This document shows, in pieces, positions 13,897-60,398 of a stretch of 64,000 bases of DNA (within the stretch, counting starts at the first letter, position 1; every line of letters starts with the position of its first letter). Source of the DNA: a virus. Both the position numbers and the translations under genes were made by a program. The stretch lies in the IMG/VR virus record IMGVR_UViG_3300037010_002261, positions 26,152 through 90,151 of that record. One strand, written 5' to 3'. The notes beneath the pieces are model-generated. The model saw nothing but the letters and a program-made list of their open reading frames with translations, had not been told where the DNA came from and did not search any database.

Positions 13897-14168
13897 GCAA
13901 GAACAAGCTCCTGGAGCTTCAACAAACGTTCATCGACCGACTTGCGCTTGACTATGACGTGGTCCTGCGGGACAAGAAGCTGCACGTGATGCGGGGCACA
14001 CGGATCATGATCCACGCTGTCTTCATGGAGACCGTGGATCAGGTGATGCTGGCGTTCTTCACCGGCAACCCGATCTTCTTCGTGTGGTCAGAGGATGGGC
14101 CTGCTTACATCGCCAAGATCGGCGTTGAGCGTTTGCACAAAGAGCTCGACAAGAATCCGTGGAAGTAA
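13893..14168 (+). CDS. LQQ-family protein, 91 aa
   Basis: A clean short member of the family: KNKLLELQQTFIDRLALDYD, then strands DVVLRDKKLHVMRGTRIMIH. Probably the minimal domain. Its stop is followed directly by the tmRNA acceptor segment. Confidence 0.6.
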   Translation: MSKNKLLELQQTFIDRLALDYDVVLRDKKLHVMRGTRIMIHAVFMETVDQVMLAFFTGNPIFFVWSEDGPAYIAKIGVERLHKELDKNPWK

Positions 14169-14169
14169 A

Positions 14170-14434
14170 TAAGAGCTGAACAGCGTAAACTGAAGGTAAG
14201 AAAAGCGGCGACACCCGGGTTCAATTCCCGGCACCTCCACCCAAGCACATATCATGTGTTCTTCGGTGGGGGTGACTTGGCGATCGACCGACGCGTAGTA
14301 TGACCATAGGCGCTCGATAGGTGACTGCCGTAAGCAGCGCAAAGCATTACAAACGCAAACGACTCTGTCTACGCGATGGCGGCCTAATAAGCCTTCGGAG
14401 TTCGTAGCCGTACTTGGCAACAGAAACGGCTACA
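14170..14434 (+). ncRNA. ssrA: Circularly permuted (two-piece) tmRNA, tag ANDSVYAMAA
   Basis: The 3' tRNA-like part comes first: T arm CCGGG-TTCAATT-CCCGG (14215-14231), CACCTCC (14232-14238) and A-CC. A short hairpin spacer (14242-14267) follows, and then the normal 5' end GGGGGTGACTTGGCGATCGA (from 14268). GGGGGTG pairs with CACCTCC over all seven positions (one G-U). The resume codon GCA at 14355 opens a tag reading ANDSVYAMAA and ending TAATAA (14385-14390), close to the E. coli tag ANDENYALAA. A strong hairpin closes at about 14431. This is the gene order of permuted ssrA in alphaproteobacteria, some betaproteobacteria and cyanobacteria. It rescues stalled ribosomes and tags nascent chains. 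Confidence 0.85.
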
Positions 14435-14930
14435 CCCCTTCAGGATATACCCACGTCCTCTTACCGTCAACGACGGCAATTTTCCTGCCTGTAATTGTCT
14501 TAGACAATTTTTCAGCTGACTTGCGTCCATTTTCAGCTGCATTGGGATTCTTTACCCCTTTGTTCCAGGCAGGTTTCCCCGTGCCTTTCCCCTTTCGGCC
14601 TTCGCTGATAGCTTTACAATAGTCTTCAGACATTGTCTTGCCTGCATTCCATGGCAATTGACCTTTCTTGCGACCGACTTTCTGATTGTAGTACTTGGTA
14701 TTGTACTCACAGTCCTTAATTCTGGCTAGTAGATCCCATTCTAGCTTTCGAATCTCTTCAATGTCGCTGATCTTAAGGATTCGACGCTTGAAGTCTTGAG
14801 GTCGATAGTGATATTCACCATTGAACCAACGCGACGATGAGGTGTAGCTGTCTGTCGGTACTCCTTCATGAGAGCCGATGTAGTACATGTTACGCAACGA
14901 GTCGCGCCAGAGATAGATGAAGCCTTGCAT
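14430..14930 (-). CDS. GIY-YIG homing endonuclease, 166 aa
   Basis: N-terminal FIYLWRDSLRNMYYIGSHEG is the GIY-YIG core in the phage Seg-like form, followed by YTSSSRWF. The second half has NUMOD3-like DNA-binding repeats (GKTMSEDYCKAISEGRKGK, PAWNKGVKNP). AT-rich against a GC-rich background. It is antisense to, and abuts the last hairpin of, the tmRNA gene, which is a plausible homing target. Confidence 0.85.
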   Translation of the reverse strand: MQGFIYLWRDSLRNMYYIGSHEGVPTDSYTSSSRWFNGEYHYRPQDFKRRILKISDIEEIRKLEWDLLARIKDCEYNTKYYNQKVGRKKGQLPWNAGKTMSEDYCKAISEGRKGKGTGKPAWNKGVKNPNAAENGRKSAEKLSKTITGRKIAVVDGKRTWVYPEGV

Positions 14931-25251: not shown

Positions 25252-26694
25252 TTAGCTAAGCAGCCCTGGCTTGGACGCTTCGGTGTACTTGACTTTGACA
25301 GGCTTGGAGATGGGGTATCCAGCCTCCTGGTAGTACTCTTTCCGCTTCTTGAAGTGCTTTTTACTGAACTTCAGCTTCGAGTGCACGTCATAGACTTCGA
25401 TATGTTTCTTGTCACCCTTCTTTCGCAGGCCACGACCTACAGACTGGATGCACTTAACGAATGACTTGCCGGTGTCGATAAGCCATTGGCAGAAGATGCG
25501 GTCGATCGAGATGCCGGTCGATGCGATGCCGACGGAGGCGATCAGGATGATGTTGTCCCGCTCGGCGTACTCTTGGTAGTTCTGCTTCCGCAAGTCATTT
25601 TCAGACTCACCAAAGAGGAAGACAGCGCCTGGAATCAGCTCCTCGAGCGCCTGCCCCTGCACAATGCTGTTGACAAGCACCAGCGTGTTGCCGACCTCGT
25701 CGCGCTTCTGCATGATCAGCTTGGCGATCAGCTCAAGACGGTCGGTGTTCTTTGAAAGGTAAGCTCGCTCTGACTGATAGTCAGGGAACTCCTCCTCTAC
25801 CAGGTCCTGAATCTCGATGTCGGTGATGTTGATGCTTGACAGGTAGCCCTGGCTGATCAGCCAAGCCGCATCAACCGTGACATGGATCGGCCCGATGGAG
25901 GTCCGCAGCGAGTACTGGTCTGTCTCAGGCTTCGGGAAGGTGCCGGTGACGCCGTAGCGGTAGGCGATGTGCTTGCCGTGCTCGTTGATCAGCTTCTTGA
26001 TAACATCGGCCTTAGCGCCGTGAGCCTCGTCTACGATGACCGCTTGGAAGTAGGCCATGTAGTGCGGGGCGTTCTGCAGGGACTGCCAGGTAGCAACAAC
26101 GATCGGGTGGTCGATGTTCTTCTCGCTGCCTGAGTAGGAGCCGATGGTCAGGTCACCCTTGATGTTGACCAGCCTCTCCTCAAACTCAGTCACTGTTTGG
26201 GTGATCAGGTCGCCTGACGGTACGATGATGATGACCTGAAACCCCTGCTTGGCAAGCAGGTACGCCATCGCGGCGCACATTGAAGTCTTCCCTGAGCCCG
26301 TAGCACAGATGCCGAAGCCCGAGCCTTCTTGCAACAGCTTGTTGATGACGTTGAGCTGGTACGGCCTGAACTTGAACTCGGTCTGGAACATGTCCTCGGT
26401 CGCCACCTCGGTGATGGCTTTGACCGGCAAGCGCCGATCATCGAAGTCGATGTCATACTCCCAAACCACAAGGTAAGGGAGGATCTCGACAAGCAGCTTT
26501 GTGTAGGTCTTGCCTTGCTGGTCCATAAAATGGACCTTGCCACTCCACCTGCCCAGCTGAAATTGAGGCATATAACGGTAGCCTTCGACATAAAAGCCGA
26601 ATTTGTTCCAAAGAACTTCAAGATGTCCGGGATGCAAACCACCGATTCGGCAATTTACTTCATCATCAATGACAATGGTACATTTTTTAGACAT
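25252..26694 (-). CDS. uvsW: UvsW-type SF2 DNA/RNA helicase, 480 aa
   Basis: Walker A ATGSGKT (about residue 133), Walker B VDEAHG, motif III GVTGTFPK and a C-terminal SVGRGLRKKGD motif VI mark a UvsW-like SF2 helicase. The N-terminal segment (WNKFGFYVEGYRYMPQFQLG) is like the T4 UvsW DNA-binding domain. It unwinds branched DNA and R-loops and promotes the switch from origin- to recombination-dependent replication. Works with UvsX, UvsY and gp32 encoded further along this strand. Confidence 0.9.
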   Translation of the reverse strand: MSKKCTIVIDDEVNCRIGGLHPGHLEVLWNKFGFYVEGYRYMPQFQLGRWSGKVHFMDQQGKTYTKLLVEILPYLVVWEYDIDFDDRRLPVKAITEVATEDMFQTEFKFRPYQLNVINKLLQEGSGFGICATGSGKTSMCAAMAYLLAKQGFQVIIIVPSGDLITQTVTEFEERLVNIKGDLTIGSYSGSEKNIDHPIVVATWQSLQNAPHYMAYFQAVIVDEAHGAKADVIKKLINEHGKHIAYRYGVTGTFPKPETDQYSLRTSIGPIHVTVDAAWLISQGYLSSINITDIEIQDLVEEEFPDYQSERAYLSKNTDRLELIAKLIMQKRDEVGNTLVLVNSIVQGQALEELIPGAVFLFGESENDLRKQNYQEYAERDNIILIASVGIASTGISIDRIFCQWLIDTGKSFVKCIQSVGRGLRKKGDKKHIEVYDVHSKLKFSKKHFKKRKEYYQEAGYPISKPVKVKYTEASKPGLLS

Positions 26695-45789: not shown

Positions 45790-45813
45790 AGGCCGTACCT
45801 TTTGGAGCAGTAC

Positions 45814-46308
45814 ATGAAACATATCCTCACAGCCCTGGCCCTCGCGGCCTTCGCTGCAGCCTCAGCTGCTGCAGCACCCGTCCCTCTGGGCACGTTGAAC
45901 CCGAGCTCTTCGTTCAGCCACACCGTGGCCGGCGAGTTCCACGACAGCTACACCTTCACCCTCGCTTCAAACTCGATCGTCGGCTCGTCTGTCACAAACG
46001 TCGCGATCGACTTCGTCGGCTTCAAGTTCGGCGACATCACGGACTTCTCAGCAACGCTCAACGGCATTGACCTGGTCTTGAACTCGGTCACCGGCACAGG
46101 GCCAGGCTACACGATCAGCACGCAAGTGCTCGCCGGCAGCACAACGTTGGCCGCAGGTAACTACTTGCTGAATGTCAACGGCGTAGCTCACGGCTTGAAT
46201 GCCAGCTACGGCGGCAACGTCGTTGCAACGCCGGTTCCCGAGCCGAGCGCCTACTTGCTGCTGGTTGCTGGTCTCGGCGCAATCGCCTTCGTCCGTCGCC
46301 GTCAATGA
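45814..46308 (+). CDS. PEP-CTERM-sorted exported protein (FxDxxT type), 164 aa
   Basis: Signal peptide KHILTALALAAFAAASAAAA. The mature part contains EFHDSYTFTLAS, the F-x-D-x-x-TF motif of a PEP-CTERM subfamily. The C-terminus has PVPEPSAYLLLVAGLGAIAF then VRRRQ: Pro-Glu-Pro, a membrane span and an Arg cluster, the signal cut by exosortase. Such proteins are typical of biofilm-forming Gram-negative bacteria and are exported with exopolysaccharide. This is a bacterial gene type carried by the phage, with its own promoter and terminator. Confidence 0.88.
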   Translation: MKHILTALALAAFAAASAAAAPVPLGTLNPSSSFSHTVAGEFHDSYTFTLASNSIVGSSVTNVAIDFVGFKFGDITDFSATLNGIDLVLNSVTGTGPGYTISTQVLAGSTTLAAGNYLLNVNGVAHGLNASYGGNVVATPVPEPSAYLLLVAGLGAIAFVRRRQ

Positions 46309-46873: not shown

Positions 46874-47467
46874 TTACTGAACCAGACCGCCGATAGCCGA
46901 GCCGGTGACGGAAGGCAGCAGCACTTGACGAGCGTGGTCGAAACGAACGGTCAGGTTGATCATGACCTTTTCACCTGTCGAGACATCGAGATCCGTCCAG
47001 TCCACGGCTTGCAAGAAGCAGCCTTCATACTTCCAGGTTTCGGTGACCGCTTCGTTACCATCTAGCATCTCAAGCATCATGCCGAACTTGTAGCCGAAGG
47101 CGGTTGCCTCGGTGTTCAGCCATGGGCCCGAAGCGCCGATCAAGCGTTGCTGACGTTCCAGCTGCGTCTGTACAGCGTTTGCCGCCTTGTTTGTGACGTC
47201 ATCTTCGACGGTCATCTGGCAGTAGTCGAAGCTGTGCTTACCCGCGATGTATGCGCGCGAGTTATAGCGGTCGAGCTGGATGTCTTCGAAAGAGAGGCTT
47301 GGACGAGTCCAAGTCACAACCTGCATTGACAGGTCATTAGGCACGCCAGCTTGAGCGCCCAGTGAGCCTCCCAGGCCTGAGAAGATAGCGCGCCAGCGGT
47401 TCTTGTGCTTTGGATGCAGGATACCGGTGCCGATGCCCGCGATACCAACTTGTGAGAGCGTTCCCAT
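46874..47467 (-). CDS. Tail tube protein (gp19-like), 197 aa
   Basis: Contains PHNRWRAIF-like KHKNRWRAIFSGLG, MQVVTWTRPSLSFEDIQLDR, EDDVTNKAANAVQTQLERQQ and the ending YEGCFLQAVDWTDLDVSTGE with VRFDHA, all in gp19 order. It stacks as hexamers to form the inner tube. Upstream is TAAATATAG and a GGGTTGTTACCC-type inverted repeat. Confidence 0.8.
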   Translation of the reverse strand: MGTLSQVGIAGIGTGILHPKHKNRWRAIFSGLGGSLGAQAGVPNDLSMQVVTWTRPSLSFEDIQLDRYNSRAYIAGKHSFDYCQMTVEDDVTNKAANAVQTQLERQQRLIGASGPWLNTEATAFGYKFGMMLEMLDGNEAVTETWKYEGCFLQAVDWTDLDVSTGEKVMINLTVRFDHARQVLLPSVTGSAIGGLVQ

Positions 47468-47509: not shown

Positions 47510-47727
47510 CTAGGCATCACAATTTGCCTTCGCCCACTTCTTCTCGCCTTCGTCAGGCTTGTAGTCTCGCTTAAACTTGATTTGAAGCTTCAGCTCCTTG
47601 TCTTCAGTGACAAGCTTTGTCTCGAGCTTGTCGCTATCATCCAGGTCATCCAAGACAAGCTGTTGAAGCTTCAACAAGCTATGCCGAAGGCCGGAATCTC
47701 AAAATCGAACACCTCAGCAAGCTTCAC
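47510..47727 (-). pseudogene. LQQ-family gene frameshifted near 47675
   Basis: GTG start overlapping the upstream TGA gives VKLAEVFDFEIPAFGIAC then a stop. The -1 frame continues LLKLQQLVLDDLDDSDKLET to the TAG at 47510. 218 bases is one short of a multiple of three; one T added in GTTGA repairs it to about 72 aa. Confidence 0.55.
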
Positions 47728-48446
47728 AGTTGTTCCACGTCAATCGAGATAACAGCCTCTACAACCGCAATGCGCTTGTCTGACCGCAGCTGAGGATCAA
47801 AGAATAAACGGCTCTCAATCTTGAAGAAGCCATTGTAGTCAGGATCACCTGGGTTGAAGTCGCGCACGATGAAACAGTCGTCGCCCGCCTCATAGCCGAC
47901 ACACAAGATAGCATGCGTAGTAGGTTCATACTCGGAATTATCAAGCATGTCTTGGTTTGGGAACGGGATGATGCCGTTCTTCACCTTCTCAACCATGTCT
48001 TGCGTAGCACCTAGCTCGCGATAGTGAGCCCAGTACCAATGATCGCTGTCATTCCTCTTACCGTCACGCAAGATTTTTGCAGCAAGGTAATAGGAGTCAG
48101 ACCAACGAATTGACACGATCAGGGGCAGCTCCTTTGCTAAAGCTGTTTTAGCTTCAGCCATGCCATTGACAAAGTCATAGGTAAATTCAATGTTGAACTT
48201 ATCCTTCAGCACCTCAACCACTTCGTTCGGGTGGATGTCAGCACCTGAGCCGTCCCAATCATTGTGAGCAAAGAACTCATACAGATCTTTCTCGGAAATG
48301 TGAACATGCTTCAGCTTGAAGGCTTCAACGAGAGCCTTCAGCAAGCAATGAAACTCACCATGACTGTGCTCGTGCTCGAACGCGTCGAGGAAGACGATCA
48401 GGTCATCCCGCACAATGTGCTTTTCAAGCAGGTCACGGATCTTCAT
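47724..48446 (-). CDS. Papain-like (C1/C39-type) cysteine-peptidase-fold protein, 240 aa
   Basis: GEFHCLLKALVEAF may hold the catalytic Cys; PLIVSIRWSDSYYLAAKILR is a core strand and helix; THAILCVGYEAGDDCFIVRD gives the catalytic His with a later Asp/Asn. A second protein of this type is at 57922. Target unknown; it could process a virion protein or act on host proteins. Confidence 0.5.
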   Translation of the reverse strand: MKIRDLLEKHIVRDDLIVFLDAFEHEHSHGEFHCLLKALVEAFKLKHVHISEKDLYEFFAHNDWDGSGADIHPNEVVEVLKDKFNIEFTYDFVNGMAEAKTALAKELPLIVSIRWSDSYYLAAKILRDGKRNDSDHWYWAHYRELGATQDMVEKVKNGIIPFPNQDMLDNSEYEPTTHAILCVGYEAGDDCFIVRDFNPGDPDYNGFFKIESRLFFDPQLRSDKRIAVVEAVISIDVEQL

Positions 48447-49315
48447 GGCTTAGCAGGTGGCTGGACATGGCACTCAGGATCGGTGCTCGGGTCGTAGTGT
48501 TCAGTTAGGGATGCGTGCGGAACGTCATCAGGATATTCTATGTCGCCGTCAACGATGTCCGAACGCACGATCACCTGTCCGATGAGTTGGTTGGGGTCAA
48601 ACGGGGCTAGCTCGCCGTCCTCACCTACTTCGAGGATCTTGGTCCCACCTTCGCTGTCCATGTTTGCAAAGTTGAGCGTAATCGTGTTGATCAGGCCCTG
48701 CTTGACTTCAGCTGGCGGGCTAATCCAAGTCTCAAAGGTGAAGCTGAGGTTCCAGACGATGATGCGACGATCGGTGCCTGCTGGGTAGTTCTCCTCGTTG
48801 CCGATGGAGTCCAGGATGACCCGCGTGATCTTTGCCCAGTCAAACGGCGAGTCATTGAACTGAACCTGCATCTCATAGTCAAAGATGATCAGAATCTGCT
48901 CGATGATCTGATAAGCCTGGTCGGTGTTGGAGGCGTAAATCGACAGCTCGTAGGTCAGGTTGTACGGCGTCGGCATGGTCCGCTTGATGAACTTGACATC
49001 CTGCGGAAAGACGCCACCCTGCTCGAGATATGACTTACGGTCATGAGTGCCGTGACCGTGCTTACGCTCAGGCGCCATCTCGATGCCGGTCAGGTAGCAG
49101 GACATGATCGGGAGAGTGTGCAAGGCGTTTTGCGTGTTGCGCGTCGCAATAGCCGCGGCTACCCGATCCGACGAGCCGTAACGGATCGGCACTACCAGCT
49201 CGTCAATCTCGCCGCACGCATTTTGTCCTGTGCGGACACGCATGTTGGCGAAGATATTGGCGAAGACGATGGTCGCCTTCTTGAGCTGCTGATTGTAGTA
49301 GTAGCTATTGAGCAT
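48443..49315 (-). CDS. Tail sheath completion/stabiliser protein (gp15-like), 290 aa
   Basis: Starts MLNSYYYNQQLKKATIVFAN, followed by an FIKRTMPTPYNLTYELSIYA strand pair and QIIEQILIIFDYEMQVQFND, matching T4 gp15, which caps the sheath and tube and joins the tail to the head. The start was taken at 49315, five bases after CTAAATA, although the frame is open for 15 more codons upstream. Confidence 0.8.
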   Translation of the reverse strand: MLNSYYYNQQLKKATIVFANIFANMRVRTGQNACGEIDELVVPIRYGSSDRVAAAIATRNTQNALHTLPIMSCYLTGIEMAPERKHGHGTHDRKSYLEQGGVFPQDVKFIKRTMPTPYNLTYELSIYASNTDQAYQIIEQILIIFDYEMQVQFNDSPFDWAKITRVILDSIGNEENYPAGTDRRIIVWNLSFTFETWISPPAEVKQGLINTITLNFANMDSEGGTKILEVGEDGELAPFDPNQLIGQVIVRSDIVDGDIEYPDDVPHASLTEHYDPSTDPECHVQPPAKP

Positions 49316-49356
49316 GCGGCTATTTAGGCCGCATAGCTCAACGGTTAAATTAAACG

Positions 49357-49885
49357 TCAATGTGAATCCCAGACATTGAACCCGCCACGGTCAGTGGTCA
49401 GGCCCAAGTCTCGCTTCATGTACGTAATGACAGCGTGGTTGAGCGCGCCGGCCATGGCCGTACTTATGGTCGGGGAGGTGACCCAAGACAAACATGATCG
49501 CTCCCTTCAAGGCCGCAACCTTTTGAGCAGACGCGTCATGATCCTTGAGTGCACGGGCGATGTTTCGGATGAAACCTTCAAACCCGGTCAGCTTGTCATG
49601 CCCCAAGTCCGCGACGTGCTTCGGGTTGACGCGCTTGAAGTCGGAGTCGAGCTCGTGCACGAGCTCGACGGCGTCTGTCACGAACGCTTGGTCATGCGCA
49701 TGTGAGGCCAAGAAGTCACACAGGTCATGAAAGAATTGCTTCGGCTCAACGGCTGCAAGGTACTCTGTGAACTCAGCGTTGTCGCTCAGCGACGACAACG
49801 AATGGTCATAAAGCTGTTGCCACCCGTCAAAGTGGGGAACAGGCTCTTCGGTCAGGAACTTTTTTGAATGACATACTGTCCTCAC
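49357..49885 (-). pseudogene. Hypothetical gene frameshifted near 49460
   Basis: GTG start overlapping the VWA gene stop. Coherent through ALKGAIMFVLGHLPDHKYGH; the +1 frame then gives MAGALNHAVITYMKRDLGLT and ends at TGA 49357. 529 bases is one more than a multiple of three. Helical, His-rich; unknown function. Repaired about 175 aa. Confidence 0.5.
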
Positions 49886-51894
49886 ATGTGCGATGCGTTG
49901 TTGGAAATTTCCTTCATCGTAGTGCAAAACTTCGAGAAGGTCTCTTTGCTGTCCAAGAGGAGCCAGACATGCTTGCGGTACGAGTTGTACAAGTCGCGGA
50001 AGTGGGTTAGGTTCTCACCCCACAGCAAATCACCGTCTGAGACTACAAGGCAATTATACCCTCTAGAAGCCAGCTTTTTGATCTGGCTGGCGAGGCTTGA
50101 GCTGAAAACTGTACCGCCGGACTTGTGATTCGACAGCACATGTTGCAGCTTTGACTTACCTAGAGGGCCAGGCTTACCGCTGTCAATGTCGGTGATGTTG
50201 TTGGCGTGGCCATGCTTACCAGGCGAGCACTCATAGATGTCGTAGTCGCCGCTGAAGATGAAGAGGTAGAAGTCGTCCTGAACGCCTGTCAGGCCTTGCC
50301 GTTGGACAAGCAGCTTGTCCAAGTTAGCCATGACGGTGTGAATGACATAGGACATCGAGCCTGACGAGTCGATGATGACAGCCAGCTTGATCTTCTTCTT
50401 GTTCGGGTTCTTAACATCACCAGGCTTGATAGCGCCGCGGTTTGTCTTGATGACCTGCTGCATCGTGCCAATGGCTCGATGGCTGACCTTTTGGTAAGAC
50501 TGGTCAAGCGTGAACGTGGTCTCGCCGATCATCTTCTTCAGCAGCGCGTCCCACTTGTAACGTGGGTTGGCTTGCGTGTAGTCAATCGGAGTCTTCTCGC
50601 CCTTTGAGTTGCCCACGGCGCGGTCTTCAGGCGGCTTGTTCTCGTAGTCAGGCGGCGGGGAGTCATCCTCGTCGGCCTGCTTATCCTTAACCTTCTTGTT
50701 CCACTTGTCAACGTCTTCGGGCTTCAGCTTGCGTTCAGCGGCCTTCTCGGTGCCGTCGGTGTTGCTACCCCCTTCAGAGTGGTCATCACCCATCCGGTCA
50801 AGCGTGTCGCCGAGCTCCTTCTTGCACTTGTCCTTCAGCTTAGCGAACTCGTTCTTGACCAGGTTGTACATCTCCTGGTACGAGCCTTGCTTGTGGAAGT
50901 TGACATATGAGCTAAACAAGCCCATCGGCAGCTGGGTGAAACCTTGCTGCACGAGCCGGTGGTTGGTGCGGAAGTCGCCCACCCAGTTGATCAGCATGTT
51001 AGACGCGTCGGGAATCACTTTCCGATAGTGGAAGTCCGAGTACGTATAGTGCATGAACTCGTGACGAATCAGGAACTCGATGTACTCATACTCGTCAGGA
51101 ATCTCGCCGCCGTTGGAGACGTACTTCTTGCCGTAGCGGTTATCCTTAGGCTTGAGCTGCTTCAGATGGGCGAAGTCGATCAGGCTCTGGCAAAACTTGA
51201 CGTTGAAGATGAACGTGCCGTCTGAGGTAGCAGCAGCGGTGTCGATGCCGCCGAAGCGCTTCTCGTTCTTCTCATTTAAGCCGTCGCCGACCAGCTTGAT
51301 CTCGGGGTGATGAATGACGTGGAAGTCAATCATGTTCCGCAACGGGAAGAACGAACGGGACTCAGCCTTGATCTTGCTAATCAACTTGCTGAAGATGATC
51401 GGGCTGAACTTTGGAGCCGTCTTGACCGGCGGCGCACGCTTAACAAAGTGCGGCGAGACGGTCAACCTACGGATGATCTCCTCGATGTCAACGTCCTTAT
51501 CCTCGATGGGATTGTCGCTGACAACGTCCTTCTTGCCCCCCTTCTTCCGCTCTTCCTCCGTTGGCGCTGCATCTTCGCCTTCAGGAGGCTTGTTCTCTTT
51601 CGGCGGAGGGCCCTTGCGGTCCCAGAACTTGTCAAACAAGATCGTCTCGATCATGTTGTCAGCCGCCGCTTCGTAAAGCACCGGTGAAATCTGAGCGACA
51701 CAGTCGATTTGCTTGAGGCGCTCAGCTACCTCATCCTTGATCGCTTGAATCTTGTCTGGGTCGCCGCCGGTGACGTGGTCAATGATCTGCTTGATGTGCG
51801 GATCATTGAACGTTGTCTTGAGCAGCGGGACTTCAACCTTATGAGACTGAACGACGATGTCGTCATCAGCCTCGTTGAGCTTGCGCCGCGCCAT
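49882..51894 (-). CDS. VWA-domain protein with a metallopeptidase-like region, 670 aa
   Basis: The C-terminal 200 residues hold a VWA domain: LAVIIDSSGSMSYV (MIDAS DxSxS), a TVFSSSLASQ (MIDAS Thr) and CLVVSDGDLLWG (MIDAS Asp). Residues about 275-300, EYIEFLIRHEFMHYTYSDFH, resemble the zincin helix seen in VWA partners of MoxR ATPases. A long charged linker separates them. It is immediately downstream of a MoxR-like gene, so it probably acts as its substrate adapter. Confidence 0.75.
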   Translation of the reverse strand: MARRKLNEADDDIVVQSHKVEVPLLKTTFNDPHIKQIIDHVTGGDPDKIQAIKDEVAERLKQIDCVAQISPVLYEAAADNMIETILFDKFWDRKGPPPKENKPPEGEDAAPTEEERKKGGKKDVVSDNPIEDKDVDIEEIIRRLTVSPHFVKRAPPVKTAPKFSPIIFSKLISKIKAESRSFFPLRNMIDFHVIHHPEIKLVGDGLNEKNEKRFGGIDTAAATSDGTFIFNVKFCQSLIDFAHLKQLKPKDNRYGKKYVSNGGEIPDEYEYIEFLIRHEFMHYTYSDFHYRKVIPDASNMLINWVGDFRTNHRLVQQGFTQLPMGLFSSYVNFHKQGSYQEMYNLVKNEFAKLKDKCKKELGDTLDRMGDDHSEGGSNTDGTEKAAERKLKPEDVDKWNKKVKDKQADEDDSPPPDYENKPPEDRAVGNSKGEKTPIDYTQANPRYKWDALLKKMIGETTFTLDQSYQKVSHRAIGTMQQVIKTNRGAIKPGDVKNPNKKKIKLAVIIDSSGSMSYVIHTVMANLDKLLVQRQGLTGVQDDFYLFIFSGDYDIYECSPGKHGHANNITDIDSGKPGPLGKSKLQHVLSNHKSGGTVFSSSLASQIKKLASRGYNCLVVSDGDLLWGENLTHFRDLYNSYRKHVWLLLDSKETFSKFCTTMKEISNNASHM

Positions 51895-54569
51895 TACTTT
51901 ACGCCTTTGCTTAGCAGCTGCTTGATGTACTTCGTCATGCGCTGATTGATGTCGCCCAGGGCGTCATACTCATCATCGCTGATGGCATCGCTGCCGAGGA
52001 AGGTCAGCAGAGCTTCCTTCAGCGGTGGGATGAACTCTCGTGACAAGCCGTGGATCATGATAGCGTGGACGAGCTCTCGCAAGAAGTACTCGAAGTGAGA
52101 AACCTTCGGGCCGTTCGCGATGTGCTTGATCGTGATCTTGTCATCGGCCAGCTCGCGCATCAGGTGGGTCGCGTCGATCAGGAACTTCTGATCGTGGGCG
52201 CCACGATTCGAGAGGAACTCGTTCAAGTCCTGCTTGAAGATGCCCGGATCGATGTTCTGGATGTAGTTCGTGAAGGCGATGTTGTTGGCCAGCACGAAGT
52301 CCGTGTCACGGAAGGTCTTCTCAGCGATGTCCTCGAAGGTCATGACCTTCGCTTTCTTGCTAATGAGGTCGAGACGGTCAGCCTCAGGGGCGGTCATGAA
52401 CCACTCCTCCAAGTCATTCCAGAAGTCAGGCGAGCGGATGCCGTGCTTGTCTTCGATGATGAAGCTGAGCTTCTGCTTAAACGCCTCGTAGACCTTCTGC
52501 TTCAGCTTGTGCGCCATCTTGTCAACGGCTGCAGCGTCGTCGGTATCATGCGCTTCGCGCTTGAAACGGGACACTTTCGGGTCCATGTTGTGGCAAACAC
52601 CCGAGTACATGTCCTCGAACTCGCGCGGCGACACGTAGATGTTGCTGCTGCCTAGGTTCAAGTGGAACTCAGTGTTGTCGCCGTCATGCTTGCCCTCATT
52701 GCGAGCGTCCTTGAACTTGTCGTAGAAGGCCGACGTGATCTCGAAGACAGCCTTGGCGATCTCTGGGTTCTTCAGCACCTTGGCAAGCTTCGGCTCAGTC
52801 TTTGTCTTGAGGAAGGTGACCGTCTGGTTCCAGCTAGCTCCAGCCGGGATGATGTCCAGGACGTCGCGCATGTGCTTGGTTAGCTCAGTCGTGCCTTGGT
52901 CATTCGGGTTGATAGCGGCGACCACGATCGAGCCTTTAGGCAGCTCGAGCGAGCCTTCATGACCAGGCTCACCCACGAACGTCTTGTCGAGGAGAATCCG
53001 ACGCAGCGCGTTGAAGACCTTGGTAGAGGTCCGGTTCAGCTCATCGAAGAAGATCAGGTACTTGTGCTCACGGCCTTCGAACTCTTTCCAGTCGATGTCC
53101 GGGTCAGAGCCTTCAGAACGCTTAGCGCCCGCGCCGTGCTCTTGAGAGCCCAGGTGATACTCCTTCAGGTGCTCCTTGAGCCAGCCTTCGCCTTCTTTGA
53201 TCTTGTTCTTGATGATTTTGTAGAGGCCAGGCTCGGAGAACTTGACAGACAGCGAGCCCTTTTCATTCTCGTCCGACAGCGGCAAGCCGATGATGTCTTC
53301 TGGTGAAAGGGTATCGGTTGGAATCATGACAGGCACCAAGCCGAGCTCGAGAGCAACGTCGATGATGTGCGAGGTCTTGCCGATGCCAGGCAAGCCAGAG
53401 ATGACTGGCACGTAGCTGCGATGCTCAGCCAGCTTCATCTTGACTTCGAGCTGGTGCTTCAGCACGTCGCGCCAGTGCTCAACCGGGTGCAGGCCCTTTT
53501 GGCCGCCGCCGACCGACCAGCTCGACTCGACTTCGATGCCTGACTGGTCTTTGATCAGCTCAGCGACAGCCGTAGCGACCTTCTGTGCAAGCTGTGACTT
53601 GGCGCCGGTCGTGTAGTTACGGAAGTTGGTGTGAACCTGGCTCATCAGCACCTTGGCGTCCTTCTCGCTCTTGACAGGCATGCTGGCGTTGATGAGCAGC
53701 AACAGCTGTTCCCACCGGCGTGGCGATGTCCGAACGTCAGCGTTGGCGTCATCGTGCGAGAGGTCAGCGTCATCAAGCGCGTCAAAGAACTTGTCGACGA
53801 GCTGCATGTTCAGCTTAACGCGCGGGTTGTCTTGGAACTTCTTGACGAACCAAGAGAACCACTCCGCCTTGCCAGGATTGTCAAACTCAAGCTTGCTGTA
53901 GTCTTGGTTGAGCGCGATTCCTTCCACGCCCTCGTCGTTCATGTTTGACGCATAAACCACGTAGCAGGTCTTCGGCAGCTGATGCAAGCCAAGGTTGCCG
54001 TTCAGGATGCCCCGCAAGATATTGCGGATAGACATCGAGGTTTCGCGGTAGTACTCGTCCAGGAACAAGATGCAGTTGAAGTGCTCACGCAGCTCCTGCA
54101 CCTCTTCTGAGAAGGTGTCATCCGTGCCGCCGAGCGCTTCGTGTAGGTGCTTGATAGCCGGAGAGCGCTTGATCGAAGCAAGCACCTGGGACTCAGGCAC
54201 AATCTTGGAGTGCATGACCTGGTTATACAGGTCGGAGTCAGCCAGCTTAACGTCGAACTTGGCCTTGTGAGCCTCGATCTTGCCTTCGGTGCTCGTGTTC
54301 GACTCAGGGTGATAGACGATGAACGGGATGTTGATGATGTGCTCTTCAACCAAGTGCGGAGTTTCAATCAGCACAAGCTTGATGCCGGCGAGCTGTGCCA
54401 GCTGGCGCACGAATGAGGTCTTACCCACACCAGGGTCGCCGGCAAGCAGCAAGCCGCCCTTGACCGTCTGGTGCATCTTGGCCTTCATGTCAGCAAACAC
54501 CGACTCAAGGTAGTCTAGCCGCTTTTCAGGAACGACAGACGAGACAGAGAACTTTTTACCTTGCGCCAT
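51894..54569 (-). CDS. MoxR-like protein with two tandem AAA+ domains, 891 aa
   Basis: First Walker A LLLAGDPGVGKTSF (about residue 42) with Walker B CILFLDEYYRE. Second Walker A VISGLPGIGKTSHI (about residue 395) with Walker B LIFFDELNRTS and sensor IVVAAINPNDQGT. These are MoxR-type AAA+ features. With the VWA protein it forms a chaperone or remodelling module, like RavA-ViaA or NorQ-NorD. Two AAA units in one chain is unusual. Substrate unknown. Confidence 0.8.
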   Translation of the reverse strand: MAQGKKFSVSSVVPEKRLDYLESVFADMKAKMHQTVKGGLLLAGDPGVGKTSFVRQLAQLAGIKLVLIETPHLVEEHIINIPFIVYHPESNTSTEGKIEAHKAKFDVKLADSDLYNQVMHSKIVPESQVLASIKRSPAIKHLHEALGGTDDTFSEEVQELREHFNCILFLDEYYRETSMSIRNILRGILNGNLGLHQLPKTCYVVYASNMNDEGVEGIALNQDYSKLEFDNPGKAEWFSWFVKKFQDNPRVKLNMQLVDKFFDALDDADLSHDDANADVRTSPRRWEQLLLLINASMPVKSEKDAKVLMSQVHTNFRNYTTGAKSQLAQKVATAVAELIKDQSGIEVESSWSVGGGQKGLHPVEHWRDVLKHQLEVKMKLAEHRSYVPVISGLPGIGKTSHIIDVALELGLVPVMIPTDTLSPEDIIGLPLSDENEKGSLSVKFSEPGLYKIIKNKIKEGEGWLKEHLKEYHLGSQEHGAGAKRSEGSDPDIDWKEFEGREHKYLIFFDELNRTSTKVFNALRRILLDKTFVGEPGHEGSLELPKGSIVVAAINPNDQGTTELTKHMRDVLDIIPAGASWNQTVTFLKTKTEPKLAKVLKNPEIAKAVFEITSAFYDKFKDARNEGKHDGDNTEFHLNLGSSNIYVSPREFEDMYSGVCHNMDPKVSRFKREAHDTDDAAAVDKMAHKLKQKVYEAFKQKLSFIIEDKHGIRSPDFWNDLEEWFMTAPEADRLDLISKKAKVMTFEDIAEKTFRDTDFVLANNIAFTNYIQNIDPGIFKQDLNEFLSNRGAHDQKFLIDATHLMRELADDKITIKHIANGPKVSHFEYFLRELVHAIMIHGLSREFIPPLKEALLTFLGSDAISDDEYDALGDINQRMTKYIKQLLSKGVK

Positions 54570-55118: not shown

Positions 55119-55934
55119 TTAGGAAACCGAAAGCTCGTGCATGAAGAGCTTAACGGCCTTCTTCCACTTCATAGGCGCCCGGTTATAGAGCGTGTCGAAG
55201 AAGTTGCTGGTATCAGCAGGGTTCATCCACTCTGGCGGGTCAGCCGCGAGCACGTATGCGTCGGTTAGGGCGCGCTCGGTGTAACCTGGGATGGTCTTGT
55301 ACTTTGCTTGCAGGTGCTTCAAGCGCCCGACCGCCGACTTGATCAGCGGGTCAAACTCGATGTCACTCAGGTTGTAGTCGTCAGACTCAGCTTCGTAGTC
55401 TGAGTGCATGCGCGTCTGCTTGCCATGCTTGTAGTGCAATGATTGGTACTGCACTAGGTGGGTCAGCTCATGCTCAAGCATCTTGATGAGCATCGGGACC
55501 TTGGACAGCGAAGCTTTTAGCGAGTCAAGCGTGCCGATTGACGGGCCTGTCATCCGTAAGTTGAACGGGGACAAGCGGATGAACGGGCCGTCATCCTCGT
55601 CATACATGCCCCCGCTGCGACCGAGCTTCTCATCCTTATCAAAGATCAGCCGCATGGCTACCGTGATGTCCACGGGGACGCCGTAGAAGGTCTCATCAAT
55701 GACGAAGCTTCGAGTGCGAAACCGTTGGTGGCCGTTCTCAATGTCAGCAAGCGTTAGCTTAACGCCGTGACGAGTCTCGACCGCTCTAATAAGCCGTGTA
55801 GCATCAGATAAGTCAGAGCCGGTCATCCGCTTCGTGATGACCCGCTCGACATAGGCAAAGTACCACTCAAGCATCACAGTCCGCATCTCAGCAGTAACGG
55901 ATGGAAGCTTGATCATGCCTTCAGTTAGCCTCAT
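55119..55934 (-). CDS. Zincin-type metalloprotease-like protein, 271 aa
   Basis: KMLEHELTHLVQYQSLHYKH holds a HELTH (HExxH) zinc motif, with later acids (DYEAESDDYNL) that may provide the third ligand. No signal peptide, so it acts in the cytoplasm or virion. Overlaps the gp14-like gene by four bases; may process a structural protein. Confidence 0.6.
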   Translation of the reverse strand: MRLTEGMIKLPSVTAEMRTVMLEWYFAYVERVITKRMTGSDLSDATRLIRAVETRHGVKLTLADIENGHQRFRTRSFVIDETFYGVPVDITVAMRLIFDKDEKLGRSGGMYDEDDGPFIRLSPFNLRMTGPSIGTLDSLKASLSKVPMLIKMLEHELTHLVQYQSLHYKHGKQTRMHSDYEAESDDYNLSDIEFDPLIKSAVGRLKHLQAKYKTIPGYTERALTDAYVLAADPPEWMNPADTSNFFDTLYNRAPMKWKKAVKLFMHELSVS

Positions 55935-57541
55935 AGCTTCTTGTCCAGGTTAACCTTGTTCGGCGAAGCGAGCACCTTGTCGATGGTCCGCTTGTGCGAC
56001 GAGTACTTGTCACGCGTGTTGACTTCGATCACGTTCCAGCGGGAGCCGTTCCACTTCAGCAGCCGATCAGGCGGTCGCAGGCTAGCAGGGAGGTTTGTGT
56101 AGGTCTGACGGTGGAAATGGCCTGCTGTGATCGTGTTGCCTGGCGGCAGGGCGTCGCCCGACGTGAACGCTTGACCATCAGCAGGTAAGGCGTCTTGCAC
56201 ATACGGGTCACGCCCGTCATAGGAGCCAGGCGGCTTGCCCATAGCCTTGCCTGACATGATGTTAGCCGGGTCACCGCCGACTTGAGGCACGTCATCCTTG
56301 CTCTTCTGGATGATAGCTTCAGTCGACTTATAGGCTTGGTCATTCTGCAGCGCGCCCAGCAAGAAGTCGTCATCGGCTTGCGCTTGGTTGATCTTGCCTG
56401 GTGTGCCTAGCAGGTCACGATGCTCGACCGATGGCATGATCGGCTGGGCATAGAATTTGAACAGCTGCGGTTTCCAGTTGAATGCATAGCCTTCGGTCGC
56501 CCAGGCTGTGTCTGTCACCTCGAGCCACTTACGTACAGGCTTCAAGAAGGCGTCATACTGTACCTCGCCGGGCAGCTCGACCACGTCACCGACCACGATC
56601 GGGCGTCCTAGCTTCTGGACCATGACGGCGAAGCTGCAAGTGAAGATGTAGGTCTGTGGCAAGCTGATGCCGAACTTTGCTAGCTCAGACTGCACGTCAA
56701 GCAGGTCATATTGACACTTGAGGAGAGTAGACTGACGGTTGTAGGACCTGTCACGGTTCTCCATCAGGAAGAAGTCCTGAATGTTGTCAATGCTGGTAGC
56801 TGTAGCCTCAAGCAGGTGTAGCTCGATGACCTCCCACTGAGAGTTGGTCGAAACACCGTTGAAGAAGATTGGCACCAGGCGCCACTGGTTGTACATTGCA
56901 TTCGATGGCACGCCTACAGTGACTAGGTCACTAGTGTCAGGCAAGGAAACGATTCCTACACGCTTCCACTCGAGACCGTCATCGCTCGCTTCCACTCGAG
57001 CTTTCGTAGCACGGTTTTCGGCGACCACACCCTGCCTGATCTTGAACGAGCCTACCTGCTTTCGAACAGGCTCAGGTGTGAAGTACCGCTCTTGCGGCGC
57101 GCCCAGCTTGTCCCACGCCTTCTTCGTGCCGAATGAGAAGCCGATGAATGCGGGCGCGCTAATGACATCAGCACCTTGCTGAACAGAGCGCCACGAAGCG
57201 TCATTGACGTTGAAGGTGTCGAGCGCGTTGTAGCCTGACGGCGCGCCCGAGGACAGCGGATAGCCTGCCGACGTGACCATGTCAACGGTTGAGCCTTGAC
57301 TGTGAACGCCAAGCATCGGGAAAACATTGACGGGGCCAGCGGCCATCTCCAGCGCTTCAGCCTGGAGGCTGGCGATGTAGTTGGCTTCGTTGTCAGCGCA
57401 CTCTGATGTCGAGTAGTCAACCGTGCCGATGCAGACCTCAGGCGGCTTGTATACGGCAGGCGCCGTGTCGTATGCGAACTTTGGGTTCGGCGGACTGCAG
57501 TCAAGCGGTGCTGGGCCTGTAGGTGTAATCTCATCAGCCAT
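55931..57541 (-). CDS. Neck/head-closure protein (gp14-like), 536 aa
   Basis: The second half, FGISLPQTYIFTCSFAVMVQ, GRPIVVGDVVELPGE, then KWLEVTDTAWATEGYAFNWK, KPQLFKFYAQP, follows the order of T4 gp14 after its FGM...GDLIYFP...INWVEP region. The N-terminal half looks like a carbohydrate-binding beta sandwich (SFKIRQGVVAENRATKARVE, VGIVSLPDTSDLVTVGVPSN), an added domain. Confidence 0.55.
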   Translation of the reverse strand: MADEITPTGPAPLDCSPPNPKFAYDTAPAVYKPPEVCIGTVDYSTSECADNEANYIASLQAEALEMAAGPVNVFPMLGVHSQGSTVDMVTSAGYPLSSGAPSGYNALDTFNVNDASWRSVQQGADVISAPAFIGFSFGTKKAWDKLGAPQERYFTPEPVRKQVGSFKIRQGVVAENRATKARVEASDDGLEWKRVGIVSLPDTSDLVTVGVPSNAMYNQWRLVPIFFNGVSTNSQWEVIELHLLEATATSIDNIQDFFLMENRDRSYNRQSTLLKCQYDLLDVQSELAKFGISLPQTYIFTCSFAVMVQKLGRPIVVGDVVELPGEVQYDAFLKPVRKWLEVTDTAWATEGYAFNWKPQLFKFYAQPIMPSVEHRDLLGTPGKINQAQADDDFLLGALQNDQAYKSTEAIIQKSKDDVPQVGGDPANIMSGKAMGKPPGSYDGRDPYVQDALPADGQAFTSGDALPPGNTITAGHFHRQTYTNLPASLRPPDRLLKWNGSRWNVIEVNTRDKYSSHKRTIDKVLASPNKVNLDKKL

Positions 57542-57565: not shown

Positions 57566-57925
57566 TCATGCGTATGTCCTATGCAGCCAAGCGACAATGT
57601 CTGACATGGTCATATAGCCGCCATGGCTGTGGACTTCCCAGTTGACATACTCGTGGCCTTTAACATTATGATGAGAGCCCTCAGCGATGTAATAACCGAT
57701 CACCTTATCAGCATGCGGCGTGTCCATCTCACTCGCTTCTTTCGTGCACGAGATAATGACGCACGGTATGTTTGTGTTGGTAGTCGTGAACTGGACTTTC
57801 GTGTCCCAGTCATCATCGACCAGCAGCTGTTGCATTTCAAGTGCCTGCTTACGCAAGTAGGAGGGCGAGTTTGGCTTAGGCACGACTTGCACCAGCACAG
57901 CTTCTAGCACGCGTTGAAGCTTCAT
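57566..57925 (-). CDS. LQQ-family protein, 119 aa
   Basis: LRKQALEMQQLLVDDDWDTK then strands VQFTTTNTNIPCVIISCTKE. Intact. ATG overlaps the upstream stop by four bases. Confidence 0.6.
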   Translation of the reverse strand: MKLQRVLEAVLVQVVPKPNSPSYLRKQALEMQQLLVDDDWDTKVQFTTTNTNIPCVIISCTKEASEMDTPHADKVIGYYIAEGSHHNVKGHEYVNWEVHSHGGYMTMSDIVAWLHRTYA

Positions 57926-58617
57926 GGCTGCACCGGCTCTAAGTCGGCGTCAAAGGTGAACGCCATCTTGATGTAGTTACGCATCGCCTTGTACGGCACC
58001 TTGACATAGCCTTTAAACAGGTACAGCGAGCGAATGTCTCGCAGGATTACCTCTTTAGAGCCTTCGTCAACGCCTACAGCAAGCAGCGCGTGATAATAGC
58101 TGCTGTGCGGGTCACGAACGCCACGGCGATCAATGAATTTTTGATGAAACTTCCCCTCATTAGAGTGGTGATTAGCACCATTGCTAAACCGCCCGTATGA
58201 ATTGTAAGGGACAATTACAGGGTGACCTTCCTTAACCGCGCTCACGATCTCTTCAACCGATGTATAGTGGTCAAAGCTAAGCTTTAGCTTATAGGGCTTA
58301 TCTTTGATTACCAGCTTGAACCCGTCATAAGCGTCGAACAGCTGTTGCGGCGTAACACCGTAAGCGTCAACCTTGTAGCGCGCCTGACGATCAAGCTTCT
58401 TGTTGTAAGCGGTAGCAAAGATCTTCAGCAAATCCGTGAGCGGAACTTGAGTTCGGGCGCTTAACACGTACGCGACTTGAGCTGTCATACAACGTTGGTC
58501 GAACGGAATTGCTCGGAGCTCGGAGCCAAAGTCACGCTTGATCAAGTCGACCAGGACAGTTAGCTGACCGTTGACGTGCACGTTGACTGGGCGCTCAAGC
58601 AGGGGGCGGATATGCAT
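57922..58617 (-). CDS. Papain-like cysteine-peptidase-fold protein, 231 aa
   Basis: FDQRCMTAQVAYVLSARTQV resembles the Q...C helix of papain-like peptidases, GHPVIVPYNSYGRF a core strand, and YYHALLAVGVDEGSKEVILR the catalytic His strand. Same fold as proposed for 47724 but little sequence in common. It lies between neck genes, so a virion maturation role is possible. Confidence 0.5.
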   Translation of the reverse strand: MHIRPLLERPVNVHVNGQLTVLVDLIKRDFGSELRAIPFDQRCMTAQVAYVLSARTQVPLTDLLKIFATAYNKKLDRQARYKVDAYGVTPQQLFDAYDGFKLVIKDKPYKLKLSFDHYTSVEEIVSAVKEGHPVIVPYNSYGRFSNGANHHSNEGKFHQKFIDRRGVRDPHSSYYHALLAVGVDEGSKEVILRDIRSLYLFKGYVKVPYKAMRNYIKMAFTFDADLEPVQP

Positions 58618-58619
58618 GC

Positions 58620-60398
58620 TTAGCCGATCACGAAAGGCATGTGGAAGTTATCGGGGCCATTCTGACCGACTTCGTAGTTCTTGACCTGGTTGACGCAGTC
58701 CTCTTGCAAGCGTTGGCCTTCAGACATCAGCATGTCAGCGTTCAAGGACAAACCGCCACCAGGGCCTGGAAGGCTCGAGAACTTGCCGCGAATGTGCGCC
58801 AGCATAAACATGAGCTCAGACTCGGCCCACTGCTGAATCCACTGCTGAGTCCACCGATCGATGAGCAGCTCCTGCTCGGTCTTTTCCATCGAGCACTCTA
58901 CCAGCACTTTCTCCATGTGGCCGAAGGTACGGTAGGTGGTCAGCTCGCGGCGCGCCTCGCGCCAGTTGAATGCGATGTCACCCGCAAACAGCTGGGTGTA
59001 GGTCTCAGACAGCGAGTGGATTAGGTGGATCGAGACCAGGTCATAGCCGACGCCTGGCGAGTAGAACTGGTTGAGGAACTGCTGCGCATATAGGTTGTCG
59101 GGGCCAAAGTTGACCAAGCCAAGCATGTTGAGGCGGTGGATCTTCAGCACGTCTACAATGCCATCTAGGCCTTTGGTCGGGTCGTTCAGGTAGTACAGCT
59201 GCTGACCTGGGACGATCGTCAAGAAGAAGTACTGCTTGTAGTAAGCCGAATCCACGCGGCGGCGCAGCTCTTGCAGTGCGTTGTTGAGCGCGATGTCAAA
59301 CTGCTCTTCGTCAAGCTCGACACAGACCTTTGGGTAACCGAGCTGACGCTTCAGGATGTCCTTGATTGTATCGCGAGGACCTGGCTCACCGTTGTCACCG
59401 ATGTTGATGCGCTGGTAAGTCGGAACGCCCTTCTTCGGCTCCTCCGACTCGACCCATGCAGTGCCAGACCAGCACTTCAAGCGCCGATCACGGGAGTTAT
59501 AGAAGAAGTCACCCTGCTTCGGGTAGCCGGTAGGCAAGCCCTTAGTTAGTGGCACTGACTTCACGGTGACAGTGTACGTGTCACCTGGGATGTATGCAGT
59601 TGGGCCTGCTTCAATCAGGAAGCTGATGTAACCGTTGCTGTACGGAACGCCTACGATAGCCGACGGCTTGATGCTCAGCGTCGAGCCTGTCACCGTGAAG
59701 ATAGTCGGTGAGACGGCCATGATCGTCCACACCTGCTCTTCGATCGCGGTGGTGCCTACAGCTGATGAGTGGATGCCACCGTCGCCCAAGCCAGAGTACT
59801 CAGCTGAGTAGATCTGCAGCTGAGCTGTTGGATCAACCTCGCCGGTGATGACCGTATGAGCGGTAGACGGCAGCCATGCGGTGCCGTTCCACGCAAACAT
59901 CATCCGCTGGGTCGGGTCGTAGTAGACCTGGCCAGGCTCAGGGTTGTCAGGCGGGCCGTAGATGTTCTCTACGTGCGGAGCCCAAGCTGAGCTAAGCTGC
60001 GTGTCTGGATATGACCTAACGCCGATGCCATAGTAGGTGTAGACATTCGTTGCGAGGTGGACCGCGACATAGACCGGGTCATTCTCGGGCAGGTTTGTGA
60101 TCGTAACCTCATTCGAGACCATGTCGTCATAGTAAGCGCCGACAACGTGGGCAGAGCCAACACGATCAGCAGGCACGTTGAAGTCAGCTGATGCGCTGTA
60201 ACGCACGCTGTCAGTCGGAAAGTTGGACGGGTTGAGCTCAGTGAGCGATGCCAGCACGATCGCGCCAGCGTAGACGTACGGCTTCTCAGGCACGTTCCAT
60301 GAGATCTTGACCGATGTCGAGCTCAAGCGCGTTAGCCGGACTTGCAGCTCGCGGCCTTCAGCGTCAACGTAGTTCGTCAGTGAGTTTACGGCTGTCAT
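58620..60398 (-). CDS. Neck protein (gp13-like) with an N-terminal fibronectin-III-like extension, 592 aa
   Basis: Residues about 325 to the end follow T4 gp13: IKDILKRQLGYPKVCVELDE, FFLTIVPGQQLYYLND, DRWTQQWIQQWAESELMFML and LPGPGGGLSLNADMLMSEGQ. The first 130 residues look like an Fn3 domain (RLTRLSSTSVKISWNVPEKP), then further beta domains. T4 gp13 has only about 309 residues, so this version is decorated, perhaps for surface adhesion. Confidence 0.7.
   Translation of the reverse strand: MTAVNSLTNYVDAEGRELQVRLTRLSSTSVKISWNVPEKPYVYAGAIVLASLTELNPSNFPTDSVRYSASADFNVPADRVGSAHVVGAYYDDMVSNEVTITNLPENDPVYVAVHLATNVYTYYGIGVRSYPDTQLSSAWAPHVENIYGPPDNPEPGQVYYDPTQRMMFAWNGTAWLPSTAHTVITGEVDPTAQLQIYSAEYSGLGDGGIHSSAVGTTAIEEQVWTIMAVSPTIFTVTGSTLSIKPSAIVGVPYSNGYISFLIEAGPTAYIPGDTYTVTVKSVPLTKGLPTGYPKQGDFFYNSRDRRLKCWSGTAWVESEEPKKGVPTYQRINIGDNGEPGPRDTIKDILKRQLGYPKVCVELDEEQFDIALNNALQELRRRVDSAYYKQYFFLTIVPGQQLYYLNDPTKGLDGIVDVLKIHRLNMLGLVNFGPDNLYAQQFLNQFYSPGVGYDLVSIHLIHSLSETYTQLFAGDIAFNWREARRELTTYRTFGHMEKVLVECSMEKTEQELLIDRWTQQWIQQWAESELMFMLAHIRGKFSSLPGPGGGLSLNADMLMSEGQRLQEDCVNQVKNYEVGQNGPDNFHMPFVIG

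Follow-up and report, generated by a model that had tools for sequence, protein, structure and literature searches.

A tandem MoxR-type AAA+ ATPase linked to a zincin-VWA protein in a phage tail gene cluster

Introduction

MoxR-type AAA+ ATPases encoded beside VWA-domain proteins are already known from jumbo phages. In group 2.2 of these viruses, Iyer et al. 2021 (PMC7824862) described a MoxR protein (ASV44729.1) together with a metallopeptidase-vWA protein (ASV44728.2) and suggested that they act in virion assembly. Here we examine a relative of this pair in which the ATPase carries two AAA modules in one chain. Its gene, and that of its zincin-VWA partner, lie in a tail gene cluster of the virus represented by IMG/VR record IMGVR_UViG_3300037010_002261, a linear viral fragment of 90,151 bases. 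The window analysed is a 64,000-nucleotide stretch of this record (positions 26,152 to 90,151), and window coordinates count from its first nucleotide. A longer twin contig of 113 kb shows no difference across the 22 kb that were compared. An initial annotation, made from the window sequence alone, had pointed out a MoxR-VWA module in a phage; the pair itself is already known, and what is new is that the tandem ATPase is covalent. The window pair also differs from the known ones in its longer partner and in lying within a tail cluster.

Queried by tblastn against 50,697 phage records, the two window proteins and a pair of homologues gave no match, and profile searches with the ATPase and partner alignments found no full-length match in known jumbo and T4-like phages. 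The link to the known phage pairs was made through PHROG families 1297 and 1314, to which the genes for ASV44729.1 and ASV44728.2, located in Atu_ph07, belong. Genes of both families lie near each other in SCTP-2 and PA5oct as well, and the window proteins match them at 2.5e-27 (ATPase, PHROG 1297) and 1.4e-14 (partner, PHROG 1314). Common to the window and the jumbo phages is a MoxR-like AAA+ gene beside one for a protein that joins an N-terminal zincin to VWA, the partners in the known single-AAA pairs being DUF2201_N plus DUF2201 proteins. The jumbo-phage ATPases, however, have one AAA module and 371-452 amino acids (aa), whereas the window ATPase has two modules and 891 aa; their partners have 394-431 aa, whereas the window partner has 670 aa and a long linker. 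PHROG 1314 is labelled 'HNH endonuclease', likely a misannotation; the three members checked (L060, L061 and L062) are DUF2201 metallopeptidase-VWA proteins. No description of a tandem MoxR protein was found in the literature searched, which omits most subscription journals.

In midasin (Rea1) and in dynein, a single chain holds six AAA+ modules. These eukaryotic proteins resemble the window ATPase in their two-module structural match and in a predicted side-by-side placement of concatenated AAA+ modules, and midasin also in using a MIDAS (metal ion-dependent adhesion site) domain on its ring; they differ in having six modules per chain, where the window system has two modules and a separate VWA-peptidase protein. 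NorQ/NorD and CbbQ/CbbO share the MoxR AAA+ and VWA folds but have one AAA module per chain, form homohexamers and serve in metal insertion or Rubisco activation; to our knowledge, neither contains a zincin. Cryo-electron microscopy of NorQD places a VWA finger inside the AAA pore and lends support to an ATP-driven VWA rotation that stretches a linker (PMC13036017). Among viruses, the Acidianus two-tailed virus also has a MoxR ATPase and VWA protein, p618/p892, which are implicated in virion tail development (PMC4124505); this is an archaeal spindle-shaped virus, p618/p892 lack a peptidase domain (PMC7824862), and the likeness is one of description. Viral CobS/CobT genes (cyanophage, haloarchaeal virus, RsoM2USA ORF445/446) similarly place an AAA+ ATPase beside a peptidase/VWA gene and are annotated as cobalamin genes. 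The RsoM2USA ATPase has 352 aa, a size for one AAA module; unlike these, the window proteins matched no CobS or CobT model in the searches detailed in the Discussion.

Results

Motifs and conservation of the tandem ATPase

The initial annotation had described an ATPase with two Walker A/B sets followed by a VWA protein with a full MIDAS, and both reading frames and their motifs are present as described (Table 1), as is the fusion of two AAA units in a tailed phage. Module 1 contains the P-loop GDPGVGKT (aa 44-51), the Walker B segment ILFLDEY (aa 167-173), sensor-1 N209 and a sensor-2 SPR (282-284), with counterparts in module 2 at GLPGIGKT (aa 392-399), LIFFDELNR (aa 505-513), N554 and SPR 647-649. 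Conservation was counted over 33 distinct ATPase homologue open reading frames (ORFs) and 39 for zincin/VWA proteins, with other viral contigs the source of nearly all; the ATPase alignment comprised 24 homologues, and its residue counts were taken over the 33 ORFs. The Walker A lysine is kept in 30 of 32 aligned rows in module 1 and in 32 of 32 in module 2, the Walker B D/E in all 32 rows for both modules, and the sensor-1 Asn and the Arg of the sensor-2 'SPR' are near-invariant in both. An arginine at the equivalent position of each module (R186 in module 1, R523 in module 2) is also conserved, making these residues candidate trans-acting fingers. Judged by motif conservation, both AAA modules look catalytically intact. 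Because the motifs of the ATPase and its partner are near-invariant across homologues, they are far from chance.

Family assignment and origin of the tandem

The ATPase had been called MoxR-type in the initial annotation, subject to its placement by profile searches. The whole protein scored above the Pfam cut-off for both AAA_3 (39.5 bits, cut-off 27) and AAA_5 (39.9 bits, cut-off 22), the best stretch being aa 502-569, inside module 2, and each model was matched by 23 of the 24 aligned homologues. CbbQ2 and NorQ were the best single-module folds by VIA-align (Z 12.8 and 12.3, respectively). By Pfam and these folds, the protein is MoxR-like (AAA_3/AAA_5, PS-II clade). Midasin was its best PDB sequence-profile match (5.7e-8), and strands ahead of long inserted helices in the predicted structure fit the helix-2 hairpin (E81-86/E105-111 in module 1, E430-434/E440-444 in module 2).

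Modules 1 and 2 are homologs of each other, with an HHalign probability of 99.2%, E 2.1e-19 and 24% identity across 232 columns. Each module is a clade of its own in a quick tree, at support values of 100 and 99, a pattern consistent with the tandem having arisen once, before the family diversified; the sequences fit derivation of both modules from one ancient duplication or fusion. The same tree, which has long branches, places both modules nearer to PHROG 1297 and an Omnitrophota gene pair than to canonical MoxR/RavA/YehL proteins.

Two adjacent paralogous single-AAA MoxR-like genes are found in an Omnitrophota metagenome-assembled genome (MAG) at L131:1217-3746 (G004:C370), a double motor divided between two genes. 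This pair was rejected as a precursor of the tandem, as it has no recognisable VWA gene nearby and its similarity is weak.

The zincin-VWA partner

The partner gene lies downstream of the ATPase gene on the same strand and overlaps it by one base. Its HEFMH segment, left unexplained in the initial annotation, occupies aa 278-282 and conforms to HExxH; the first histidine is kept in 33 of 34 aligned partner rows, and N303, D307 and N311 are invariant. PF13203 (DUF2201_N, 'putative metallopeptidase') was matched by 16 of 19 partner homologues, that of L065 over the cut-off. The window partner itself gave no match to PF13203 at E 0.01, though HExxH is present, and PF09967 (VWA-like, DUF2201) was not among the family matches of the 19 partners, to which other VWA models match weakly. 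From these residues and family matches, HEFMH is the predicted active site of a zincin metallopeptidase domain (DUF2201_N). The MoxR-VWA chaperone module of the initial annotation thus holds as a module, while the word 'chaperone' is incomplete.

The MIDAS is complete, comprising DSSGS at aa 509-513 (D509-S511-S513), T595 and D620, with the MIDAS aspartate kept in 28 of 28 rows and the threonine in 27 of 27; the motifs of all domains of the pair are likewise complete. In the AlphaFold2 (AF2) model of the partner (predicted local distance difference test, pLDDT, 74; predicted template modelling score, pTM, 0.53), NorD is the top Foldseek match, and VIA-align to the NorD VWA domain gives Z 10.7 and a root-mean-square deviation (rmsd) of 3.0 over 146 residues. 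The VWA identity is upheld by this match and by the conserved MIDAS, whose loss in homologues had been named as evidence to the contrary. Matches to the VWA domain take up both the VIA-align and the Foldseek list for this model, and the zincin call rests on sequence. A long low-confidence linker (aa about 373-445) separates the zincin and VWA domains in the model. In five tandem-ATPase loci (L069, L075, L085, L086 and L087) the two domains are encoded as consecutive separate ORFs, a pattern expected of functional partners.

Linkage and distribution

Scanning viral contigs with a profile recovered 35 tandem-ATPase loci of uncultivated viruses; the longest contig, at 360 kb, exceeds the 200 kb that marks a jumbo-phage genome. 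Once copies were taken out and the window and a single MAG locus were included, the set numbered 32, not otherwise corrected for relatedness. A zincin-VWA gene lies downstream of the tandem ATPase on the same strand in 30 of these 32 loci, directly adjacent in 27 (often overlapping) and with one gene between in 3. By this near-universal gene linkage, the ATPase and the zincin-VWA protein are one module.

Zincin-VWA genes also occur where no ATPase gene adjoins them (L010:7704-9608, L012:3315-5228 and L113:9638-12137), those of L010 and L012 near UvsX/gp32-like genes. A scan of cellular genomes, limited to two short peptide patterns, returned one tandem locus, in an Omnitrophota MAG, on a 12.7-kb contig with gene content like that of viral locus L069; no other tandem locus was found in 14 Omnitrophota genomes. 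A cellular origin of the tandem form was rejected, the sole MAG locus of this limited scan lying on a contig with virus-like genes.

Predicted ring architecture

Dynein and Rea1 gave the top two-module VIA alignments of the AF2 monomer model of the ATPase (pLDDT 84.9, pTM 0.76). Both modules superposed at once on dynein AAA2-AAA3, with Z 14.6 and an rmsd of 5.1 Å over 504 residues, and on Rea1/midasin, with Z 13.6 and an rmsd of 7.0 Å over 477 residues. The model suggests that the two modules are side-by-side neighbours in one ring rather than members of stacked rings. Compared with the concatemers, the window ATPase has two AAA modules, not six per chain, and three tandem chains would probably form one six-module ring.

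The alternative is a conventional two-tier hexamer in the style of p97/ClpA, which would be compatible with any function and which we consider unlikely. Two-module chains usually stack as two rings, as do the Type II AAA+ proteins p97 and NSF (PMC5447069), and ClpA is present among the Foldseek matches of the model. It appears there at rank 46-47, however, with a query template modelling score of 0.14-0.16 versus about 0.40 for dynein. The lead of dynein and Rea1 in the two-module alignments and the MoxR-like character of the modules, by Pfam and by single-module fold, also argue against stacking.

Gene neighbourhood

The pair lies among tail and neck genes on the same strand (Table 1); farther same-strand genes of the window encode a tail-tube-like protein, a head-closure protein and terminase. 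The sheath stabiliser has its best relatives in jumbo phages, e.g. XacN1 and PA5oct, and gp15-like genes near the pair are also present in L005, L006, L065 and L078. Upstream of the module, with two small ORFs between, is the gene for the HELTH protein, which is kept beside the pair in L005 and L065. Just downstream of the VWA gene, a 178-aa ORF matches the ATPase C-terminus at 36.5% over 104 aa, with a shift of frame at the end of the similarity. This ORF was rejected as a third functional component, being out of frame at its end and absent from the position after the pair in relatives; it is probably a decayed ATPase duplicate.

Other features of the window were recorded. C39-peptidase-like proteins with weak Pfam scores flank the module at 47724-48446 (-) and 57922-58617 (-) (0.012 and 0.019, respectively). 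On the opposite strand within the tail cluster, 45802-46308 (+) encodes an FxDxF-family PEP-CTERM protein (NF038126, 9.3e-29) with a PEP-CTERM tail. This gene, an unusual phage cargo, is in both contigs of the virus and suggests a host with an exosortase system. ARAGORN predicts a transfer-messenger RNA at 14149-14478 (+) with the tag ANDSVYAMAA (starred in its output), near eight tRNAs, five of them Leu.

Table 1 Features of the module and its neighbours in the window
Feature	Position	Strand	Evidence
Tail tube protein	46874..47467	(-)	phrog_4542, 9.8e-43
Tail sheath stabiliser (T4 gp15 type)	48443..49360	(-)	PF16724, 9.8e-45
Partial duplicate of ATPase C-terminus, 178 aa	49391..49927	(-)	Resembles aa 760-859
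Zincin-VWA partner, 670 aa	49882..51894	(-)	ORF listing, motifs; AF2 model
VWA domain (aa 499-670)	49885..50400	(-)	MIDAS residues; NorD structural matches
Zincin-like metallopeptidase domain (aa about 160-370)	50785..51417	(-)	HEFMH; PF13203 in homologues
Tandem MoxR-type AAA+ ATPase, 891 aa	51894..54569	(-)	ORF listing (stop codon included), AF2 model
ATPase C-terminal region (aa 661-891), mostly helical	51897..52589	(-)	Secondary structure of model
AAA+ module 2 (aa 363-660)	52590..53483	(-)	Motifs and model; phrog_1297, 2.5e-27
AAA+ module 1 (aa 10-343)	53541..54542	(-)	Motifs and model; PF00004, aa 40-175
271-aa protein with second HExxH (HELTH)	55119..55934	(-)	No Pfam match
Virion structural protein	55931..57541	(-)	phrog_11591, 7.3e-24
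Neck / head-tail adaptor Ad2	58620..60398	(-)	phrog_211, 3.4e-53

Discussion

The conserved motifs of all domains, the near-universal gene linkage and a place in a tail and neck gene cluster, the last in the window phage and its nearest relatives only, lead us to read the pair as a phage-encoded ATP-driven machine that would remodel and process neck or tail components during virion assembly, a plausible function that we advance with some reserve. The initial annotation had left the target as a host or a virion complex; within that same narrow group of phages, the context favours the virion. The record of the single-AAA homologue in PA5oct carries an ESI-MS/MS (electrospray ionisation tandem mass spectrometry) note, which we count in favour of the virion, and p618/p892 of the Acidianus two-tailed virus serve as a precedent.

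By analogy with the NorD finger that enters the NorQ pore, the VWA domain would dock on the ATPase ring, and the MIDAS would grip a tail or neck protein by one of its acidic residues. As in the NorQD model, ATP hydrolysis could move or rotate the VWA domain against the zincin, acting through the long flexible linker; the substrate would be remodelled and a segment of it presented to the zincin for cleavage. A more specific scenario is possible, if speculative. In it, two active MoxR modules are covalently joined, three such chains build one ring of six modules, an architecture half-way between MoxR homohexamers and the rings that midasin and dynein each form from a single chain, and a separate peptidase-VWA effector matures phage tails.

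Several points weigh against these proposals. Only 10 of the 32 loci have a head, neck, tail or terminase gene that could be recognised in the fetched flank, L068 adjoins UvsX/gp32-like genes, and the single-AAA pairs of Atu_ph07 and SCTP-2 adjoin DNA polymerase genes, whereas the window pair lies in a tail cluster. Two of the 32 tandem-ATPase loci have no nearby VWA gene. The dynein/Rea1 superposition has a high rmsd (5-7 Å), and the ring arrangement is suggested by a monomer model without predicted aligned error, which cannot prove assembly. The substrate, its cleavage, the docking and the rotation are steps that we infer, in part from the NorQD analogy.

The module could instead be directed at the host, remodelling or cleaving a host complex of defence, respiration or transcription. 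Cellular MoxR-VWA pairs such as NorQD and RavA-ViaA are described as remodelling cellular complexes; the genome context varies in distant relatives, and the partner contains a peptidase domain. We nonetheless regard a host target as improbable, given the tail/neck clustering in the nearest relatives and a strong, long-term conservation over very different phages that is unlike that of most host-takeover genes. Quite improbable, too, is a role in remodelling the phage's own replication or recombination complexes. In its favour are the RNA ligase as well as DNA polymerase genes that adjoin known single-AAA pairs, and the UvsX/gp32-like genes near L068 and L010/L012, but the closest genes that could be recognised to either side of the window pair are virion genes. 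A CobST-like cobaltochelatase, inserting cobalt into the corrin ring and boosting host cobalamin synthesis as widespread phage cobST clusters have been interpreted to do (PMC8651126), is very improbable: the ATPase is weakly similar to phrog_249 'porphyrin biosynthesis' (3.9e-7) and 3 of 19 VWA homologues weakly match TIGR02442 (6.9e-6), but no CobS model is among the NCBIfam matches listed for the ATPase and no CobT model among the Pfam matches of the 19 partners, the partner has an intact DUF2201_N-type zincin instead, the pair has a tail-gene context, and no CobN was found in 10 related viral records (four >289 kb, some fragments), though a host CobN could serve.

How six-module concatemers arose from rings of separate subunits is a question on which two-module MoxR chains bear. 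A large, old virus-borne family of such chains would be a natural and tractable intermediate architecture, analogous rather than shown to be ancestral. The findings also urge care before phage AAA-VWA pairs are read as cobalamin genes. If the proposed role in virion assembly is true, jumbo-phage biology would gain a testable energy-driven peptidase for that process.

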